Below are positions 1,039 to 18,783 of a stretch of 38,073 nucleotides of DNA, piece by piece; the stretch's first letter is position 1, and every line of letters starts with the position of its first letter. Source of the DNA: a virus; IMG/VR virus record IMGVR_UViG_3300027969_003452, positions 1-38,073 of that record; one strand, 5' to 3'. A program made the position numbers and the translations under genes. Under the pieces are notes generated by a model. The model ran no database searches. It was not told the origin of the DNA and saw nothing but the letters and a program-made list of their open reading frames with translations.

Positions 1039-1812
1039 ATGCAAAAAACTTACCGTAGTATTTTTGTGAGTGATGTCCACTTAGGTACAAAAGACTGCAA
1101 GGCGGAACAGCTCAATAATTTTCTCAAGCACAACTCGTGCGACACTCTCTATCTAGTAGGCGATATTATCGATGCCTGGAAGATACAACAAAATAAATGG
1201 CGATGGAAACAGAGTCACACTAATGTAGTACGCAGAGTACTAGGACACGCCAAGCGAGGAACTCGTGTGGTGTTCATAGCTGGTAACCACGATGAATTCT
1301 TAAGACCAATGATACCATATGGTTTTAGTTTTGGCTCAATAGAAATACACAATCAAATAGAACACATAGGCGCAGACGGCAAACATTATTTGGTTACACA
1401 CGGTGACCTATTTGATGGCATTACAAGACTAGCACCGTGGATAGCATTTTTAGGGGACAAAGCATATGACTTCGTTCTTGCTGTTAACAGTAAATTTAAT
1501 TGGATTCGTCATCGTATGGGTTTTGGCTATTGGTCTCTTAGCAAGTACCTTAAGCAACGAGTCAAGAAGGCAGTGGACTTTATGTTCCAGTTCGAAAAGA
1601 ACCTTGCCAGATACTGCAAGAAGAGGGGATTCGATGGTGTCATCTGCGGACATATACACCACGCAGAAATCAAAGACGTAGATGGTATAACTTATATGAA
1701 TGACGGCGACTGGGTTGAATCGTGTACAGCACTTGTAGAGCATTGGGATGGTCGTTGGGAAATAGTAACTTGGACAAAATCAAATGACAAAGACGATACT
1801 TATAGTAACTGA
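1039..1812 (+). CDS. LpxH-like UDP-2,3-diacylglucosamine diphosphatase / metallophosphoesterase
   Basis: The 257-residue protein carries the full calcineurin-like phosphoesterase set: SDVHLG (D12, H14), GDIID (D42), GNHDE (N83, H84), THGD (H121) and CGHIHHAE near residue 206, then NDGDWVES. This spacing and the ending are those of LpxH-like enzymes, which cleave UDP-2,3-diacylglucosamine to lipid X in lipid A synthesis at the inner membrane. The last 29 bases overlap the glycosyltransferase gene, so the two are coupled. Such phosphoesterase plus GT4 pairs also occur in bacterial genomes, so a bacterial source is likely. The exact substrate is uncertain, because this subfamily is not proven to be LpxH. 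There is no ribosome binding site before the ATG. Confidence 0.8.
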   Translation: MQKTYRSIFVSDVHLGTKDCKAEQLNNFLKHNSCDTLYLVGDIIDAWKIQQNKWRWKQSHTNVVRRVLGHAKRGTRVVFIAGNHDEFLRPMIPYGFSFGSIEIHNQIEHIGADGKHYLVTHGDLFDGITRLAPWIAFLGDKAYDFVLAVNSKFNWIRHRMGFGYWSLSKYLKQRVKKAVDFMFQFEKNLARYCKKRGFDGVICGHIHHAEIKDVDGITYMNDGDWVESCTALVEHWDGRWEIVTWTKSNDKDDTYSN

Positions 1813-2800
1813 TAACTTACCGGAGCAGATCAATGGCGTTGTCACAACATATAAAAATATTGAGGCTTGTGCGCTTCTGGATGGTTATCGCGTTGTTTAC
1901 ATTACTCCCGGGGACTTCCGCTACTTTGATTGTCCTGGCTACAACGAAGTCAAGATTGCCCTTACTTACCAACGCAAAGTGGGCAAGAAGATTGAGGCGC
2001 TCAGTCCGGATTATATCCATATCGCCACAGAGGGTCCTCTTGGTCTGTGTGCTAGAAAATATCTTTCAAAACATAATTTTAGGTACAATACTGCTTATCA
2101 TACTAAGTTCCCTGAAGGACTTAGAGCCCTATTTGGAATCCCTGAGGCAGTTACTTGGCCTTTGGTAAGATGGTTCCATAAGCACAGTGGCAAAGTACTA
2201 ACCACAACTGACACAATGGTCAAGGAGTTACAGGCACACGGTTTTGACGGCGATGTTATTCCTTGGACTCGCGGAGTTGATCGTACGATATTCAATCCAA
2301 GTCAACGAACCGGCACAGTGGTAAACGGGCCTATACTGGTTTGTGTTAGCCGTGTGAGTAAAGAAAAGAATTTAGAAGCATACTTTGAAATGCCCTATGC
2401 GGGTGTTAAGTTTATGGTAGGCGATGGACCTATGCTGGAAGAGTATAAGGCCAACTACCCTGACGTAAAATTTGTAGGCGCCAAGCGCGGTCTAGAACTT
2501 GCCAAATACTTTGCTATGGCAGACGTGTTTGTATTTCCCAGCCGTTGGGAAACATTTGGACTAGTGATGATTGAAGCAATGGCCTGCGGTACTCCAGTAG
2601 CGGCTTACCCTTGTCAAGGCCCATTAGATGTAGTCGATGAAGGTATTACAGGTTGTCTTAATGATGATTTGAAACAGGCAGTCAACGATGCACTAATGCT
2701 AGACCGACAGCGTGTTTGGGAAGGCAGTGGTCGTTGGACTTGGGAACGTGCTTGGGAGATATTCCGCGACAATCTCGTAGAAAAATCGGGTGCAAGATAG
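1784..2800 (+). CDS. GT4-type glycosyltransferase
   Basis: A 338-residue GT-B fold glycosyltransferase. It opens with ILIVTDNLPEQINGVVTT, typical of the nucleotide-sugar enzymes related to mannosyltransferases such as MgtA and PimB. The C-terminal donor domain shows VSRVSKEKNLE, then FVFPSRWETFGLVMIEAMACGTP with the E-x7-E motif of retaining family 4 enzymes. It overlaps the LpxH-like gene by 29 bases in another frame. The pair suggests modification of a glycolipid or lipopolysaccharide precursor, which for a phage could mean changing receptors on the infected cell. Donor and acceptor cannot be told from sequence. Confidence 0.88.
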   Translation: MTKTILIVTDNLPEQINGVVTTYKNIEACALLDGYRVVYITPGDFRYFDCPGYNEVKIALTYQRKVGKKIEALSPDYIHIATEGPLGLCARKYLSKHNFRYNTAYHTKFPEGLRALFGIPEAVTWPLVRWFHKHSGKVLTTTDTMVKELQAHGFDGDVIPWTRGVDRTIFNPSQRTGTVVNGPILVCVSRVSKEKNLEAYFEMPYAGVKFMVGDGPMLEEYKANYPDVKFVGAKRGLELAKYFAMADVFVFPSRWETFGLVMIEAMACGTPVAAYPCQGPLDVVDEGITGCLNDDLKQAVNDALMLDRQRVWEGSGRWTWERAWEIFRDNLVEKSGAR

Positions 2801-2891
2801 GGCATCACTGGAACCCGTAACCAGTACTAACACTAACTCCTTTTAATGAATTTCACTATATGATCTGTGGTGATTTCGTCATATAATAACG

Positions 2892-2918
2892 ATACATACT
2901 AATGCAGTATGTATTTTT
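2892..2918 (+). terminator. Perfect 9-bp hairpin with T-run upstream of pqqA
   Basis: ATACATACT (2892-2900) pairs with AGTATGTAT (2906-2914) around loop AATGC, followed by TTTT. It may end the upstream glycosyltransferase transcript. It also sits just after a TATAAT (2882-2887) that has only a weak -35 partner, so it could instead be a stabilising 5' hairpin of the pqqA mRNA. The 134-base gap 2801-2934 holds nothing else I can support. Confidence 0.55.
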
Positions 2919-2934
2919 ATAAAGGAGTACTATT

Positions 2935-3006
2935 ATGTGGACAAAACCAGAAGCAGTTGAAATGCGTTACGGATTCGAAGTCACTATGTACGTGATGAAT
3001 CGATAA
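2935..3006 (+). CDS. pqqA: PqqA, pyrroloquinoline quinone precursor peptide
   Basis: A 23-residue peptide starting MWTKPEAVEM and ending GFEVTMYVMNR. It has the hallmark E-V-T-x-Y of PqqA, with Glu15 and Tyr19 at the same positions as in the Klebsiella-type PqqA (MW-KP start, GLEVT-Y core, NR end). In bacteria PqqE cross-links this Glu and Tyr and other Pqq proteins finish the redox cofactor PQQ, used by periplasmic methanol, glucose and alcohol dehydrogenases. AAAGGAG (2921-2927) stands at ideal distance before the ATG. The gene is alone: no pqqB, C, D or E lies in the window, and it is bracketed by hairpins. The phage would supply extra precursor to the host's own enzymes. Length, ends and reactive residues together make chance unlikely. 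Confidence 0.88.
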   Translation: MWTKPEAVEMRYGFEVTMYVMNR

Positions 3007-3015
3007 TAAAGACCT

Positions 3016-3040
3016 AGCCCACTTCGGTGGGCTTTCTCTT
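3016..3040 (+). terminator. Intrinsic terminator after pqqA
   Basis: AGCCCAC (3016-3022) pairs with GTGGGCT (3027-3033) around a TTCG tetraloop, followed by the T-rich TTCTCTT. It closes the pqqA transcript ten bases after its stop codon. Confidence 0.8.
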
Positions 3041-3098: not shown

Positions 3099-3497
3099 AT
3101 GTTAGATTGTTTAATTATGGGTGACAGTATTGCAGTAGGTACAGCCCAAGTGCGAAAAGAATGTGTTTCATATTCAAAAGGCGGCATTAACAGTTATCAA
3201 TGGTTGAACGCTAACGTGGGCAAAAGTCCCTACGTTGCTAAAACTGTCATTATCAGTTTGGGATCAAACGATCACAAGTATGTTAAAACAGAAACGGAAT
3301 TGCGTACCATTCGCGAACTAACCAAAGCAGATCGGGTATATTGGATACTGCCAGCGAACAAGAAAGATATGGCTGACATCGTGTTTAAGATTGCAAATGA
3401 GAATCACGATAGAGTTGTAAAAATTGCAGACTTATCCACTGACGGTGTACATCCTACCGGCAAAGGATATAAGATGATTGCCGAACAAACAAAATGA
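3099..3497 (+). CDS. SGNH-family hydrolase (GDSL-like esterase)
   Basis: The 132-residue protein has the SGNH blocks in order: GDSIAVG (nucleophile Ser) near residue 8, a Gly block in SKGGINS, LGSND, and DGVHPTGKGY near the C-terminus with the catalytic Asp and His. It is shorter than most GDSL esterases (about 180-250 residues), so it is a minimal form. ATG 3099 was chosen because CGGAGGA stands just before it and the promoter at 3039-3067 would exclude starts further upstream. The stop overlaps the next start (ATGA). Substrate is unknown; deacetylation of cell-wall or surface sugar is one option for this family. No signal peptide is seen, so it acts in the cytoplasm or is carried in the virion. 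Confidence 0.8.
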   Translation: MLDCLIMGDSIAVGTAQVRKECVSYSKGGINSYQWLNANVGKSPYVAKTVIISLGSNDHKYVKTETELRTIRELTKADRVYWILPANKKDMADIVFKIANENHDRVVKIADLSTDGVHPTGKGYKMIAEQTK

Positions 3498-5731: not shown

Positions 5732-5748
5732 TTTGGTAAAGCACCTGG

Positions 5749-5777
5749 TTGACTTTGATCGGCCACGGTGCTATACT
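5749..5777 (+). promoter_or_regulatory. Sigma70-type promoter for lipoprotein operon
   Basis: TTGACT (5749-5754), a 17-base spacer and TATACT (5772-5777), TG-extended. It stands forty bases before the lipoprotein start at 5817. Confidence 0.8.
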
Positions 5778-5816
5778 ATATGTGTTGTTAATCATATACA
5801 CACAGAAAGGCATTTT

Positions 5817-6296
5817 ATGAAAAAGGCAATATTAGTAGGCTTATTGGCATCAGTTATTACTGGCTGTTCGTCAATGAAAGACATTCCTGAGCGTAAGACT
5901 TATGCTCAACCCAGTTGGTATCAAGACTGCGCCCAAGAAGGTGTTAAGGGTTGGTTTTGGTGGTCAGAAGATTACGTCTATGCTTGCGGTGCTGGCGAAA
6001 GCTCTTATGCACAAGCGGCTGAAGAACAGATGGATGCTATTGCGATGAATAACTTTGCAAAACGCATCAACGGTACTGTCAACTCCGAAACTGTAATTGA
6101 AATCAATAACGATAAGAAAACTACTCGTACATTTATTTCTTACAAGGTTGCAGATACTGCCATCCGTAAGCACGTTAAGAGTGAGAAAGGTCACTTTACA
6201 ATGGGCGGACGTCATTATACCTATGTTCGTTTAGAAATGAAGAAGACTACCTTTGATCAGTTGATCGCTGAAGCCCAGGCCAAGCGAGCACAATGA
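5817..6296 (+). CDS. Lipoprotein, LPP20-like
   Basis: 159 residues. The first 18 form a lipoprotein signal (MKKAILVGLLASVITGC) with lipobox ITGC, so the mature protein begins at the lipidated Cys. The rest contains YACGAGESSYAQAAEEQ and a mixed alpha/beta body resembling the LPP20 family of outer-membrane lipoproteins. ATG 5817 is chosen because it begins the signal peptide and follows the promoter by forty bases with AGAAAGG upstream. The stop overlaps the next gene (ATGATGA). It would sit in the host envelope. Phage lipoproteins may block superinfection, but that is inference here. Confidence 0.75.
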   Translation: MKKAILVGLLASVITGCSSMKDIPERKTYAQPSWYQDCAQEGVKGWFWWSEDYVYACGAGESSYAQAAEEQMDAIAMNNFAKRINGTVNSETVIEINNDKKTTRTFISYKVADTAIRKHVKSEKGHFTMGGRHYTYVRLEMKKTTFDQLIAEAQAKRAQ

Positions 6297-11973: not shown

Positions 11974-13881
11974 ATGTCTAAGATCATCGGTATTGACCTC
12001 GGCACCACCAACTCTTGCGTGGCTGTTATCGAGGGTGGAAAATCCAAAATTATTGAAAACTCAGAAGGCGCTAGAACTACGCCTAGTATCGTTGCCTATT
12101 CGAATGGCGAGATCCTAGTTGGTGCAAGTGCAAAGCGTCAAGCAGTAACAAATCCCAAAAACACCATCTATGCTAGTAAGCGTTTGATCGGTCGTAAGTT
12201 TACAGAAAAAGAAGTACAGAAAGACATCAAATTGATGCCTTACTCAATCGTCGAATCCGAAAACGGTGATGCTTGGGTACAGGTTAATGATGACAAACTA
12301 GCACCACCACAAATTAGTGCAGAAGTGCTACGTAAGATGAAAAAGACAGCGGAGGATTATCTAGGTGAAACAGTTACTCAAGCGGTTATCACAGTTCCCG
12401 CATACTTTAATGATCAACAAAGACAGGCTACAAAAGACGCTGGTAAAATCGCAGGGCTGGAAGTACTCCGTATTATTAACGAGCCTACTGCGGCAGCTCT
12501 TGCTTATGGCGTTGATAAAGCTGATAAAGCTGACAGGAAAATTGCTGTTTACGATCTTGGTGGCGGTACATTCGACGTATCGATCATTGAAATCGCGAAT
12601 GTCGACGGCGACAAACAAATCGAAGTACTAAGCACCAATGGTGATACATTCCTAGGTGGTGAAGACTTTGACCAACGCATTATGGATTTCTTAGTTGACG
12701 AATTTAAGAAAGAACAAGGTATTGATCTTAAGACTGATCAATTGGCTCTACAGCGTTTGAAAGACAGTGCTGAAAAGGCCAAGATTGAATTGTCAAGTTC
12801 TGCACAGACAGAAGTCAACTTGCCATATATTACAGCAGATGCAAGTGGTCCTAAGCATCTAGTGGTAAAACTTACTCGTAGCAAACTAGAGCAGTTAGTT
12901 GATGAGCTAATCCAACGTTCAGTTGGTCCTTGTAAGACTGCTATGAAAGATGCCAAAGTAACTTCAGCAGACATTGACGAAGTTATCCTAGTTGGTGGTA
13001 TGACACGTATGCCAAAGGTACAGGAAACTGTTGAAGCACTGTTTGGTAAAGCACCACGTAAAGATGTCAACCCAGACGAAGCAGTAGCCGCTGGTGCTGC
13101 AATCCAGGGCGATGTACTAGGCGGCGGTCGCACAGACGTTCTATTGCTAGACGTTACTCCATTGAGTCTAGGTATTGAAACTATGGGCGGCGTAATGGCC
13201 AAGTTAATTGAGAAGAACACTACGATTCCAACTAAGAAATCACAGACTTTCTCAACAGCAGAAGATAACCAACCAGCAGTGGATATTAAAGTATTCCAAG
13301 GCGAACGTGAGCTTGTACAGTACAACAAGCTTCTAGGAGAATTTAAACTAGAAGGTATTGCTCCAGCACCGCGTGGTATACCACAGGTTGAAGTTACACT
13401 AGATATTGATGCTAACGGCATTATGAATATCAGTGCTAAGGACAAAAACACTGGCAAAGAAAACAAGATCACTATTAAATCAGATAGTGGTTTAAGTGAA
13501 GAAGAAATTAAGCAGATGATCCGAGACGCTGAAGAAAATGCAGAAGCTGATAAACAGGCACGTGAATTAATCGAAACACGTAACTCAGCAGAAGCTACAC
13601 TTCATCAGGTTAAAAAGGATCTCGAAGAGTTCAAAGATGAACTTAGCGAAACTGAAAAAACAGATATCGAAACAGCCATTGCTGCCGTAGAAGAAGCTAA
13701 GTCAGGTAATGATGCTGCTAAGATCAAAGAAGAACTTGAAAAGGTTTTCCCGGCAATGAAAACATTGTTGGAGAAAAAACAGGCGAAAGAAGCAGCCGCG
13801 GCAGCACAGCCAGAAGCAGCAACTACGACTGTTAACGAAGATAATGTAGTCGACGCTACTTTTACAGAGAAGAAAGACTAA
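11974..13881 (+). CDS. dnaK: Chaperone DnaK (Hsp70), full length
   Basis: 635 residues, the normal length of bacterial DnaK. The ATPase domain has [14 protein letters not shown] at the N-terminus, [25 protein letters not shown] and [11 protein letters not shown]. The linker [16 protein letters not shown] leads to the substrate domain and a helical lid. The tail ends in an Ala-rich stretch and [12 protein letters not shown], as in proteobacterial DnaK. Ribosome binding site AAGGAG stands five bases before the ATG. No dnaJ or grpE is in the window, so host co-chaperones must serve it. Full-length DnaK is uncommon in phages; with Hsp20 and ClpS it forms a proteostasis set. A 17-base leader element is shared with the Hsp20 gene. 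Confidence 0.97.
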
Positions 13882-14422: not shown

Positions 14423-14722
14423 ATGACAACAGCAACCGTAATCGAAGAAAAAGTAGTGGTAGCATTACAACCACCAAAATTGTGGAAAGTAATCTTCCTC
14501 AATGACGAACAAACTCCAATGGAACTTGTAATACAACTTCTCACACAAGTTTTTAAACATACAGAAACCCGTGCGAAAGAGATCACTTTAGAAATTCATA
14601 ATACTGGTAGCGGCATCGCTGGAGTTTACCCTTATGAGATTGCCGAACAGCGTGGTGTAGAAGCCACAACAATCGCTCGAGCTAACGGATCGCCTTTACG
14701 TATCCAGGTTGAGGAAGAGTGA
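14423..14722 (+). CDS. clpS: ClpS, adaptor of the ClpAP protease
   Basis: 99 residues. The core LWKVIFLNDEQTPMELVIQL matches the ClpS N-degron binding fold (usual form LLNDDYTPMEFVV), followed by a helix with KEITLEIHNTGSGIAGVYPYEIAEQ. ClpS delivers proteins with N-terminal Leu, Phe, Trp or Tyr to ClpA. The flexible N-terminal tail needed for delivery is short but present. A phage ClpS may steer host proteolysis during infection. A separate ClpP-like protein is encoded at 33322. GGAGAG stands before the ATG. Confidence 0.9.
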   Translation: MTTATVIEEKVVVALQPPKLWKVIFLNDEQTPMELVIQLLTQVFKHTETRAKEITLEIHNTGSGIAGVYPYEIAEQRGVEATTIARANGSPLRIQVEEE

Positions 14723-14732
14723 TATATACGTT

Positions 14733-15296
14733 ATGAGCAATTTAAAAGAACTTACCAAAGACAGTCATACAAACGCAGAGCGTCAAGAATTCGTTAAAAT
14801 TCTTTTTTCTGGAACTATTGATCCTAAGCTGTATGCAACCTATTTAAAAAATCAACACCCTCAATACGAAATCCTAGAAGTCTGTGCAATGCCAAAAGGT
14901 CTGCTAACAGGTCTTCCAGATATTCGTCGAGCTCCAAAAATCTTAGAGGACTTTAGAGAACTATGGGGCGACAACAATGACGTCAATCCTAGACTCTGTC
15001 CTGTAACTCACGAATACGTAAAATATATCTTAAGTATCAAAGACCAACCAGAAAAACTTATGGCACATATCTATGTTCGTCATATGGGTGATTTGGCAGG
15101 TGGTCAAATGATCGCTAAGAAAGTTCCAGGCAAAGGTCAGTACTATCAATTTGCCGAACCAGAAGCACTTAAAGTTGCTATCCGTGAACGACTAACAGAT
15201 GAGATGGCTGAAGAAGCAAAAGTCTGTTTTGATTTTGCAAAACGCTTTTTCCAAGAAATGATGGACATTGCTAATGAAGACTTCCCAAAGCAGTAA
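14733..15296 (+). CDS. Heme oxygenase (phage Ho1 type)
   Basis: 187 residues. LTKDSHTNAERQEF contains His12, the expected proximal heme ligand (as in the VHTQAE segment of HO-1). HIYVRHMGDLAGGQMIAKK is the distal-helix heme oxygenase signature with its glycines intact. The enzyme opens heme to biliverdin IX-alpha, releasing CO and iron, using reduced ferredoxin or a similar donor. The next gene overlaps it by 23 bases and encodes a bilin reductase, so biliverdin is passed on. ATG 14733 is ten bases after the clpS stop. Cyanophages carry homologues, but this window shows no photosynthesis genes. Confidence 0.92.
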   Translation: MSNLKELTKDSHTNAERQEFVKILFSGTIDPKLYATYLKNQHPQYEILEVCAMPKGLLTGLPDIRRAPKILEDFRELWGDNNDVNPRLCPVTHEYVKYILSIKDQPEKLMAHIYVRHMGDLAGGQMIAKKVPGKGQYYQFAEPEALKVAIRERLTDEMAEEAKVCFDFAKRFFQEMMDIANEDFPKQ

Positions 15297-16042: not shown

Positions 16043-16483
16043 ATGAATAAAATAGTATGGTTAGTACTGCTATTCCCTACAATAGCTATTAGTACACCCT
16101 TAGACTTTGGATTTAAAAGCCCGTCATTTAACGGCGTTGGCTACAGTTCTCACGTGCTTACTATTGAGAATCAAGAATTTACCCGTCAAGCGCAGGTTAA
16201 AAAAGACATTCAAGCAGCGTTAGATAAAGCAAAAGCTGACAAAGCTAATTCTAATATTTCTAAGTTTCTTAACAACTTAGAATCACGTATCTATGCACAA
16301 ATATCACAAAATTTAGCAACTGCTATGTTTGCCAATGGCGGCACTAACAGCGGTACACTAAACTTTGAAGGTAATACTATATTCTGGAGTAAAGACGGAA
16401 CGGCAGTAACAATGACAGTGACTGATGTTACAGGAAATCAGACCACTGTAGTGATACCGTTAAGTCAATTCCAATTCCAATAA
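16043..16483 (+). CDS. csgF: CsgF, curli nucleation/assembly factor
   Basis: 146 residues (E. coli CsgF is 138). A signal peptide (to about residue 18) is followed by LDFGFKSPSFNGVGY, matching the FQFRNPNFGG segment by which CsgF plugs into the CsgG channel. The C-terminal half has a helix (LNNLESRIYAQISQ) and strands (TVTDVTGNQTTVVIPLSQFQ) like the NVTDRKTGQTSTIQV part of E. coli CsgF. CsgF sits at the outer face of the CsgG pore and links secretion to fibre nucleation. The csgG gene begins one base after its stop. The ribosome binding site is poor (a G-run at 16030-16034). Confidence 0.85.
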   Translation: MNKIVWLVLLFPTIAISTPLDFGFKSPSFNGVGYSSHVLTIENQEFTRQAQVKKDIQAALDKAKADKANSNISKFLNNLESRIYAQISQNLATAMFANGGTNSGTLNFEGNTIFWSKDGTAVTMTVTDVTGNQTTVVIPLSQFQFQ

Positions 16484-17865: not shown

Positions 17866-18783
17866 ATGATTAAAAAAATGGTTAGAGGTCTAAAAGGCGC
17901 TGGTGAGTTGTCGAGAAAATTACTCACAATTCTGGTGGTGGCTGCAATGCCAACATTGGGCTATGCTGTTGACAATAGTATATACATTGATCAAAGTGGT
18001 GATAATGCTGTAATTAATATCACACAAGATGGTCCAAGTAATACTGTCAAAGGTATAGTGAATAACGGTCCTGGAGTGAGGGGAGTTGACGCTGCCACTA
18101 TCACCGGTGACAATACACAGATACTGATTAATCAAATTGGTTCAGGCAATACCCTGTCTTTAAAATCAGCTGGTGCTACAGAATCTGGAAAACGTGATAC
18201 CACTATTAACTACAGAATAACAGGTAACAACGCACAGGCATTTATTAATAACAATGGTGCTAGTAACCTTATTGACATTACACAGGCAGGAAACAACACC
18301 GTGTTACAATCACGTGTAACTGGTGGTCGTAACGAAGTTTCTGTTACAACTGCGGGTGACGGGGATAGTGTTATTTCTACTATCGCAGGTGACGACAACG
18401 TACAAAATATTACAAAGTCCGGAACAGTTGGTGGTAACTCAACTACTATTTCAACTACTGGCGATAGTAATACTATTGGTATCAATTTAAGTGGATATGG
18501 AAACATATTTGGTATAGAGCAATCTGGTACTAGCAACAGTATCAGTGTTGGTGGTTACGCTGGCGGAGCAATGTCTGGAAACGACAACCAAATACAACTT
18601 GTGCAAAATGGTAACAGCAACAAAATTGAGTTAGCAGTTTCCGGCGACACAAACTATATCGGTGTAAACCAAGGTTCATCAGGAGCAGGTCAAGAAGCAA
18701 AGATTAAGATTAACGGTAGTGGTAACAGCGTTAATGTTAGTCAAGGACTCAACGTCCCATTGTTAACTTTACCAACACGTTAA
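17866..18783 (+). CDS. Curlin-repeat amyloid protein (CsgA/CsgB-like)
   Basis: 305 residues. The signal peptide ends near LGYA (about residue 27), preceded by a basic N-terminus. The mature part is about ten degenerate curlin repeats of the form N-x-I-x-Q-x-G-x-x-N: IDQSGDNAVINITQDG, INQIGSGNTLSL, ITQAGNNTVLQS, IEQSGTSNSISV, LVQNGNSNKIEL and others. Each repeat would make one strand-turn-strand layer of an amyloid beta-solenoid. E. coli CsgA has five repeats, so this is a double-length subunit. Export would use CsgG. It is the main fibre candidate; whether it acts as CsgA or CsgB cannot be told. Confidence 0.85.
   Translation: MIKKMVRGLKGAGELSRKLLTILVVAAMPTLGYAVDNSIYIDQSGDNAVINITQDGPSNTVKGIVNNGPGVRGVDAATITGDNTQILINQIGSGNTLSLKSAGATESGKRDTTINYRITGNNAQAFINNNGASNLIDITQAGNNTVLQSRVTGGRNEVSVTTAGDGDSVISTIAGDDNVQNITKSGTVGGNSTTISTTGDSNTIGINLSGYGNIFGIEQSGTSNSISVGGYAGGAMSGNDNQIQLVQNGNSNKIELAVSGDTNYIGVNQGSSGAGQEAKIKINGSGNSVNVSQGLNVPLLTLPTR

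Follow-up and report, generated by a model that had tools for sequence, protein, structure and literature searches.

PqqA is a consumed substrate: PqqD/PqqE cross-link Glu15 with Tyr19, the two residues that PqqE joins, and the remaining peptide is discarded, so that one PqqA is spent for every PQQ. Methylophilaceae are methylotrophs which use a PQQ-dependent methanol dehydrogenase.

Phage-encoded PqqA has been described before. In 2020 a phage population from Lake Baikal, VP_266, was reported to carry pqqA beside a viral methanol dehydrogenase (PMC7678222), and there, as here, it was proposed that the phage-encoded peptide supports methanol oxidation. The gene which we analysed lies in IMG/VR virus record IMGVR_UViG_3300027969_003452, 38,073 bases read on one strand, and this whole stretch is called the window below. 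In view of the VP_266 report the gene is not new in kind but is a new example of a known phenomenon. Unlike VP_266, where pqqA accompanies methanol dehydrogenase in one population, the window's pqqA stands alone, and such genes are common in cultured methylophages and present in at least 120 viral stretches. No mention of phage pqqA was found in PMC9004378, PMC10580990 or PMC8163748, and the literature searched seems not to have brought together how general the gene is, how annotation of isolates has missed it and the copy-number logic of the hosts.

Compared with cellular PqqA (PF08042/TIGR02107), the gene agrees in length, in matching the whole model, in Glu15/Tyr19 and in its Methylophilaceae type, whereas it lies in a virus, alone and without pqqBCDE. 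With the stand-alone pqqA genes of Methylophilaceae it shares identical or near-identical peptides and the arrangement as scattered single-gene units; those genes, in contrast, are cellular and number up to 12 copies, and the OM43-type clade has one copy with a leader RNA, which the window lacks. Melnitz (MZ577097, PMC9004378), the nearest cultured relative by a cyclase-like protein (47% identity), has a methylotroph host and also carries pqqA, but there the gene lies under an antisense CDS next to a tRNA, at another genomic site than in the window.

Identity and genomic setting of the phage pqqA gene

The original prediction read a 23-residue ORF of the window as PqqA from its Glu15/Tyr19 pair, and two curated models bear this out. 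The peptide (Table 1) matched Pfam PF08042 (PqqA) over the whole model (1-19) with 35.9 bits (cut-off 21.1; E 7e-9) and NCBIfam TIGR02107 with 34.9 bits (cut-off 20), and both residues are in place. At the level of sequence the ORF is thus confirmed as a full PqqA and no chance match. PHROGs held no family for the peptide, and a PDB sequence search with it returned noise only.

Table 1. Coordinates of the pqqA gene, its signals and its neighbours in the window, and of intron-split pqqA in other viral contigs
Feature	Position	Strand	Evidence
Glycosyltransferase family 4, upstream neighbour of pqqA	1784..2800	+	PF13692/PF00534/PF13439
TATAAT, promoter -10-like	2882..2887	+	conserved in most related pqqA leaders
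5' leader hairpin, stem GATACATACT/AGTATGTATT, loop AATGC	2891..2915	+	fold; stem kept in relatives
Shine-Dalgarno (SD) AAAGGAG, 7 nt 5' of ATG	2921..2927	+	sequence; AGGAG core invariant in aligned relatives
pqqA, 23 codons, MWTKPEAVEMRYGFEVTMYVMNR	2935..3006	+	PF08042 and TIGR02107 above cut-off; pN/pS 0.22 in relatives
Intrinsic terminator hairpin AGCCCACTTCGGTGGGCT with T-rich tail	3016..3033	+	terminators: 2 found vs 0.3 expected in shuffles
SGNH/GDSL-type hydrolase, downstream neighbour of pqqA	3099..3497	+	PF00657, 24.9 bits, barely above cut-off
Intron-split pqqA	L512:4150-4460; L541:3990-4360	+	Rfam Intron_gpI (RF00028)

The viral nature of the record is evident from a head maturation protease, an array of 18 tRNAs and its phage relatives, and the host-type metabolic gene thus sits in a bona fide viral genome. 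The cyclase-like protein (680 aa) has its nearest cultured relatives in Melnitz, a Methylophilales phage, and in the Pelagibacter phage HTVC008M (38%); the latter, second by this gene, gave no pqqA match in tblastn. With either the cyclase-like protein or the glycosyltransferase as query, IMG/VR yields relatives of up to 367 kb, so that a place among large T4-like phages is probable for the record. It is itself probably a 38-kb fragment of a larger phage. Elsewhere the window encodes a full-length DnaK/HSP70 (11974-13881, +; 861 bits to PF00012), whose best matches (72-67% identity) are spread over many bacterial genomes of the class with Methylophilaceae not singled out, as well as clustered heme oxygenase, CsgF-like and curlin-repeat proteins (14709-15296, 16043-16483 and 17866-18783, +) and an AhpD/carboxymuconolactone-decarboxylase-like gene (294-800, +).

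The pqqA cassette occupies the window's place in L355, L371, L374 and L375 and lies elsewhere in other relatives, whereas in L377 the glycosyltransferase and SGNH genes are immediate neighbours, which represents an empty site. Where the cassette sits at a different site, leader and SD are retained. A homologue of the AhpD-like gene stands immediately upstream of pqqA in L317, L318, L339, L351 and L373, an alternative cassette site. Among loci found through other genes, pqqA was present in 20 of 160 loci and 13 of 38 large records; some of the large relatives without it may have other hosts or be incomplete records.

Searches for pqqA in the viral and genome collections used degenerate DNA patterns, the first of which fixes GFEVTMY, so that conservation of Glu15 and Tyr19 is circular in that set. 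In a re-test set made up of loci found through other genes and of phage-collection hits, both residues were present in all 24 distinct peptides, and the expectation that they are conserved in related phages thus held. Some viral versions vary at position 16 or 17 (V/I/C, EICMY). The codon bootstrap for the pN/pS ratio of the relatives (0.12-0.36) shows that viral pqqA, as judged from its codons, is under purifying selection.

Occurrence of pqqA in phages and hosts

The peptide was compared by tblastn with 50,697 phage records. Nine of the matching records come from cultured Methylophilales/Methylophilaceae phages of unlike type (MEP301, MEP401, MEP402, Venkman, P19250A and four Melnitz); the only other matches were a podovirus from the environment and two records filed under 'Acinetobacter phage'. 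The one of these two that was examined, CAKLQF020000010.1 (L454:4001-7255), bears the name Acinetobacter phage MD-2021a but contains a bacterial pqqABCDE operon and is probably a mislabelled bacterial contig. So small a gene had been predicted to be easily missed, and pqqA was indeed unannotated in all five representatives opened (MEP402, MEP301, Venkman, P19250A and Melnitz); in Melnitz and in the environmental podovirus an antisense CDS overlies it. Scanning IMG/VR for GFEVTMY yielded at least 120 viral stretches, with a true PqqA of 22-25 aa in each match listed; the collections searched are incomplete.

The absence of other pqq genes, also predicted, extends beyond the window: PqqE above cut-off was found in none of 31 pqqA-bearing viral records, the window record included, and hence no complete pqqABCDE operon, taken as pqqE with pqqA, in any of them. 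The window record has neither PqqE nor methanol dehydrogenase, the latter being present in one of the 31 records. In that of L043 (IMGVR_UViG_3300025120_009955, 72 kb) a full-length, XoxF-like PQQ-dependent dehydrogenase of the methanol/ethanol family (L266:1084-2958, +; 624 aa, 608 bits) adjoins a curlin-repeat-like gene.

In GTDB genomes the peptide type EMR[FY]GFEVTMY[VI] occurred almost exclusively in Methylophilaceae and in betaproteobacterial MAGs with little classification. Several viral peptides do not differ from Methylophilaceae PqqA in a single residue. Because of this PqqA type and of the relatives, the host of the window phage is most likely a Methylophilaceae methylotroph, which agrees with the PQQ-using host proposed originally. 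All 120 Methylophilaceae genomes examined carry pqqA, 113 of them in at least two copies (range 1-12, median 4), and in G001 (strain LSUCC0665) the genes lie at 52 and 875 kb, apart from pqqE at 765 kb. Multiplication of pqqA alone by the hosts is what would be expected if extra copies pay off for the consumable substrate but not for the enzymes, and this reasoning applies equally to the phage copy.

Signals of the pqqA cassette

The strong ribosome binding site and the terminator claimed for the gene are both present in the window (Table 1). The claim that it stands alone between hairpins stood in part: the gene is alone and the downstream hairpin is a terminator, but the upstream hairpin does not flank the unit. 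Since it lies between the TATAAT and the SD, we assign it to the 5' leader of a short mRNA instead of taking it for a terminator that borders the gene. Upstream of this TATAAT no convincing -35 candidate was found. In folding tests the window leader gave a z of -3.4 and the segment 2889-3042 a z of -2.75. In L372, L317, L339 and L408 the stem reads ATAAGTAC/GTACTTA as against ATACATAC/GTATGTA, two pairs being changed on both sides. In the loci examined, close matches to the window's leader-hairpin sequence stood before pqqA, other matches being partial and due to chance. Viral and host pqqA leaders had a median z of about -0.95 compared with -0.12 in controls that were partly intragenic (p 9e-9 and 3e-7), and this hairpin excess lends modest support to the leader hairpin.

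A structured leader RNA before pqqA outside the window

Many other viral pqqA genes and those of some hosts are preceded by a more elaborate leader RNA, made up in turn of a conserved 5' UCAAG, the 6-bp stem P2, an internal loop (CYU/CUC), a variable hairpin, GAYCUG and the outer stem P1. It was aligned in alignments A2-A4, with L069:6012-6063 (+), L083:3026-3077 (+) and L143:2371-2431 (+) as viral examples and L461-L483 as hosts. In 18 sequences 98% of the P2 cells were paired, with 27 double changes vs 7.8 in shuffles and a covariation score of 0.758 vs 0.271, and none of 500 shuffles scored as high. P1 and P2 together scored 0.613 vs 0.260, and 41 members, in an alignment fitted to the model, 0.464 vs 0.214. 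The RNA was also considered as a known Rfam family, and the Rfam search gave no support, no family matching it. A conserved CTCTC..TGATCTG block that precedes some pqqA genes had been considered as the end of an upstream protein; its frames were full of stops with no shared ORF, and the block proved to be RNA.

A model of this RNA (R1), whose E-values are rough, had a single match in each of 23 of 187 Methylophilaceae genomes. These 23 genomes measure 0.7-1.4 Mb, and in every one the element sits 34-40 nt upstream of the leading gene of a tandem pqqA pair; under strict filters, 368 other genomes of the class gave no match. A viral scan in which the stem was left free returned 84 stretches, of which 80 could be parsed and 78 had all six P2 pairs. 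Sixty-four of these 78 stand directly before an intact pqqA, two before an EICMY variant, eight before an interrupted pqqA and two before a pqqA truncated where the contig stops, while two end before any gene is visible. In the window R1, with its P1/P2 stems and UCAA/GAYCU and CYU/CUC loops, is absent (best score 1.9 bits) and only the simple hairpin is found; among related large-phage loci the element occurs only in L356. The latter viral contig also carries a betaproteobacterial-type tmRNA gene (5743-6107, +; 154 bits), and ROSE_3 RNA thermosensor matches above the gathering score were seen in two pqqA-bearing viral contigs (L069:4506-4572 and L083:1445-1510, +). In the predicted fold the 5' CUC of the leader RNA is able to pair with the SD GGAG, which suggests translational control of pqqA. 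RNA control of pqqA has a precedent in the c-di-GMP riboswitch before pqqA of Methylophaga GP59 (PMC12530212). This covarying leader RNA, common to OM43-type hosts and many phages, is apparently unreported.

A putative group I intron splitting viral pqqA

Nine viral contigs (L498, L512, L517, L536, L541, L542, L545, L552 and L564) have pqqA interrupted within GGG-TTT (Gly13-Phe14). In two of the nine the contig stops before the insert does; inserts with both ends visible measure 231-278 nt. Matches to Rfam Intron_gpI came from three of the contigs (L536, L512 and L541), with up to 65.3 bits against a gathering score of 50. Intron-less relatives (L516, L530, L548, L557 and L501) have the precise empty site with the same leader and first exon, and joining the exons gave a full PqqA peptide in six of six cases joined, for example MWTTPSATEMRFGFEVTMYVMNR. 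We take the insert to be a group I intron that is predicted to splice. An HNH/NUMOD3 endonuclease gene lies just downstream of pqqA in four of the intron-bearing contigs. A group I intron in the 23-codon viral pqqA is apparently unreported.

Discussion

As far as sequence can show, the window holds a real PqqA under purifying selection, of the host clade's type, in a cassette with conserved signals and without pqqE. We consider it quite likely that viral pqqA serves as an extra consumable substrate for the host PQQ pathway during infection. The phage would carry an additional, independently expressed copy of the host gene, and its short mRNA, with 5' hairpin, strong SD and terminator, would supply PqqA while host transcription falls. 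Host PqqDE would process the viral peptide to PQQ, and the PQQ-dependent methanol dehydrogenase would be kept running for the energy and C1 supply of the methylotroph during infection. We infer that the peptide is expressed in infection, processed by host PqqDE and of benefit to the phage. Against a substrate role stands the presence of pqqA in only 13 of the 38 large relatives, and PqqA need not be limiting in hosts which already hold several copies.

Other readings of the gene are less likely because of the evidence against each. The viral peptide might act as a decoy or brake, occupying PqqD/PqqE or being badly processed so that less PQQ is made, which would alter metabolism or guard against formaldehyde. 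A small free substrate analogue could act in this way, with nothing specific pointing to it, and the differences of some viral versions at position 16 or 17 would fit; but loss of the reacting residues would then be expected, while every peptide of the tested set retains Glu15 and Tyr19, and several viral peptides match host PqqA exactly. We therefore regard a decoy as improbable. The same likeness to the host, seen in the peptide and in parts of some leaders, could mean that pqqA is a piece of host DNA acquired accidentally and of no use to the phage. Purifying selection, presence in many unlike phages, retention of its own signals at another site and, in other phages, restoration of the frame by precise removal of the group I intron all speak against a passenger, which we hold to be very improbable.

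Viral PqqA might instead feed a radical-SAM enzyme of the phage that makes a different peptide product. Weak matches to the PqqE model do occur in nine of the 31 pqqA-carrying viral records, but every one is far below the PqqE cut-off, as in control genomes, and neither the window record nor most of the others has any; the chance of this is slight in the extreme.

Thus supply of substrate to the host pathway remains our preferred reading. More broadly, we lean towards the view that pqqA is near-core in methylotroph phages and has been captured repeatedly from Methylophilaceae, that in one branch it arrived with, or later received, an undescribed regulatory leader RNA common to OM43-type hosts and phages, by which phage and host copies would respond to one signal, and that the gene has become a homing-intron target despite its 72 nt. 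As a natural example of a homing intron in so small a gene, the split 23-codon pqqA would be extreme, and the leader RNA is a candidate for a new element that regulates PQQ synthesis. If the proposed role is true, the PQQ-limiting step in infected cells would be testable with existing pairs (Melnitz or Venkman on H5P1), and many methylotroph viruses of oceans and lakes would steer methanol oxidation through one consumable peptide.
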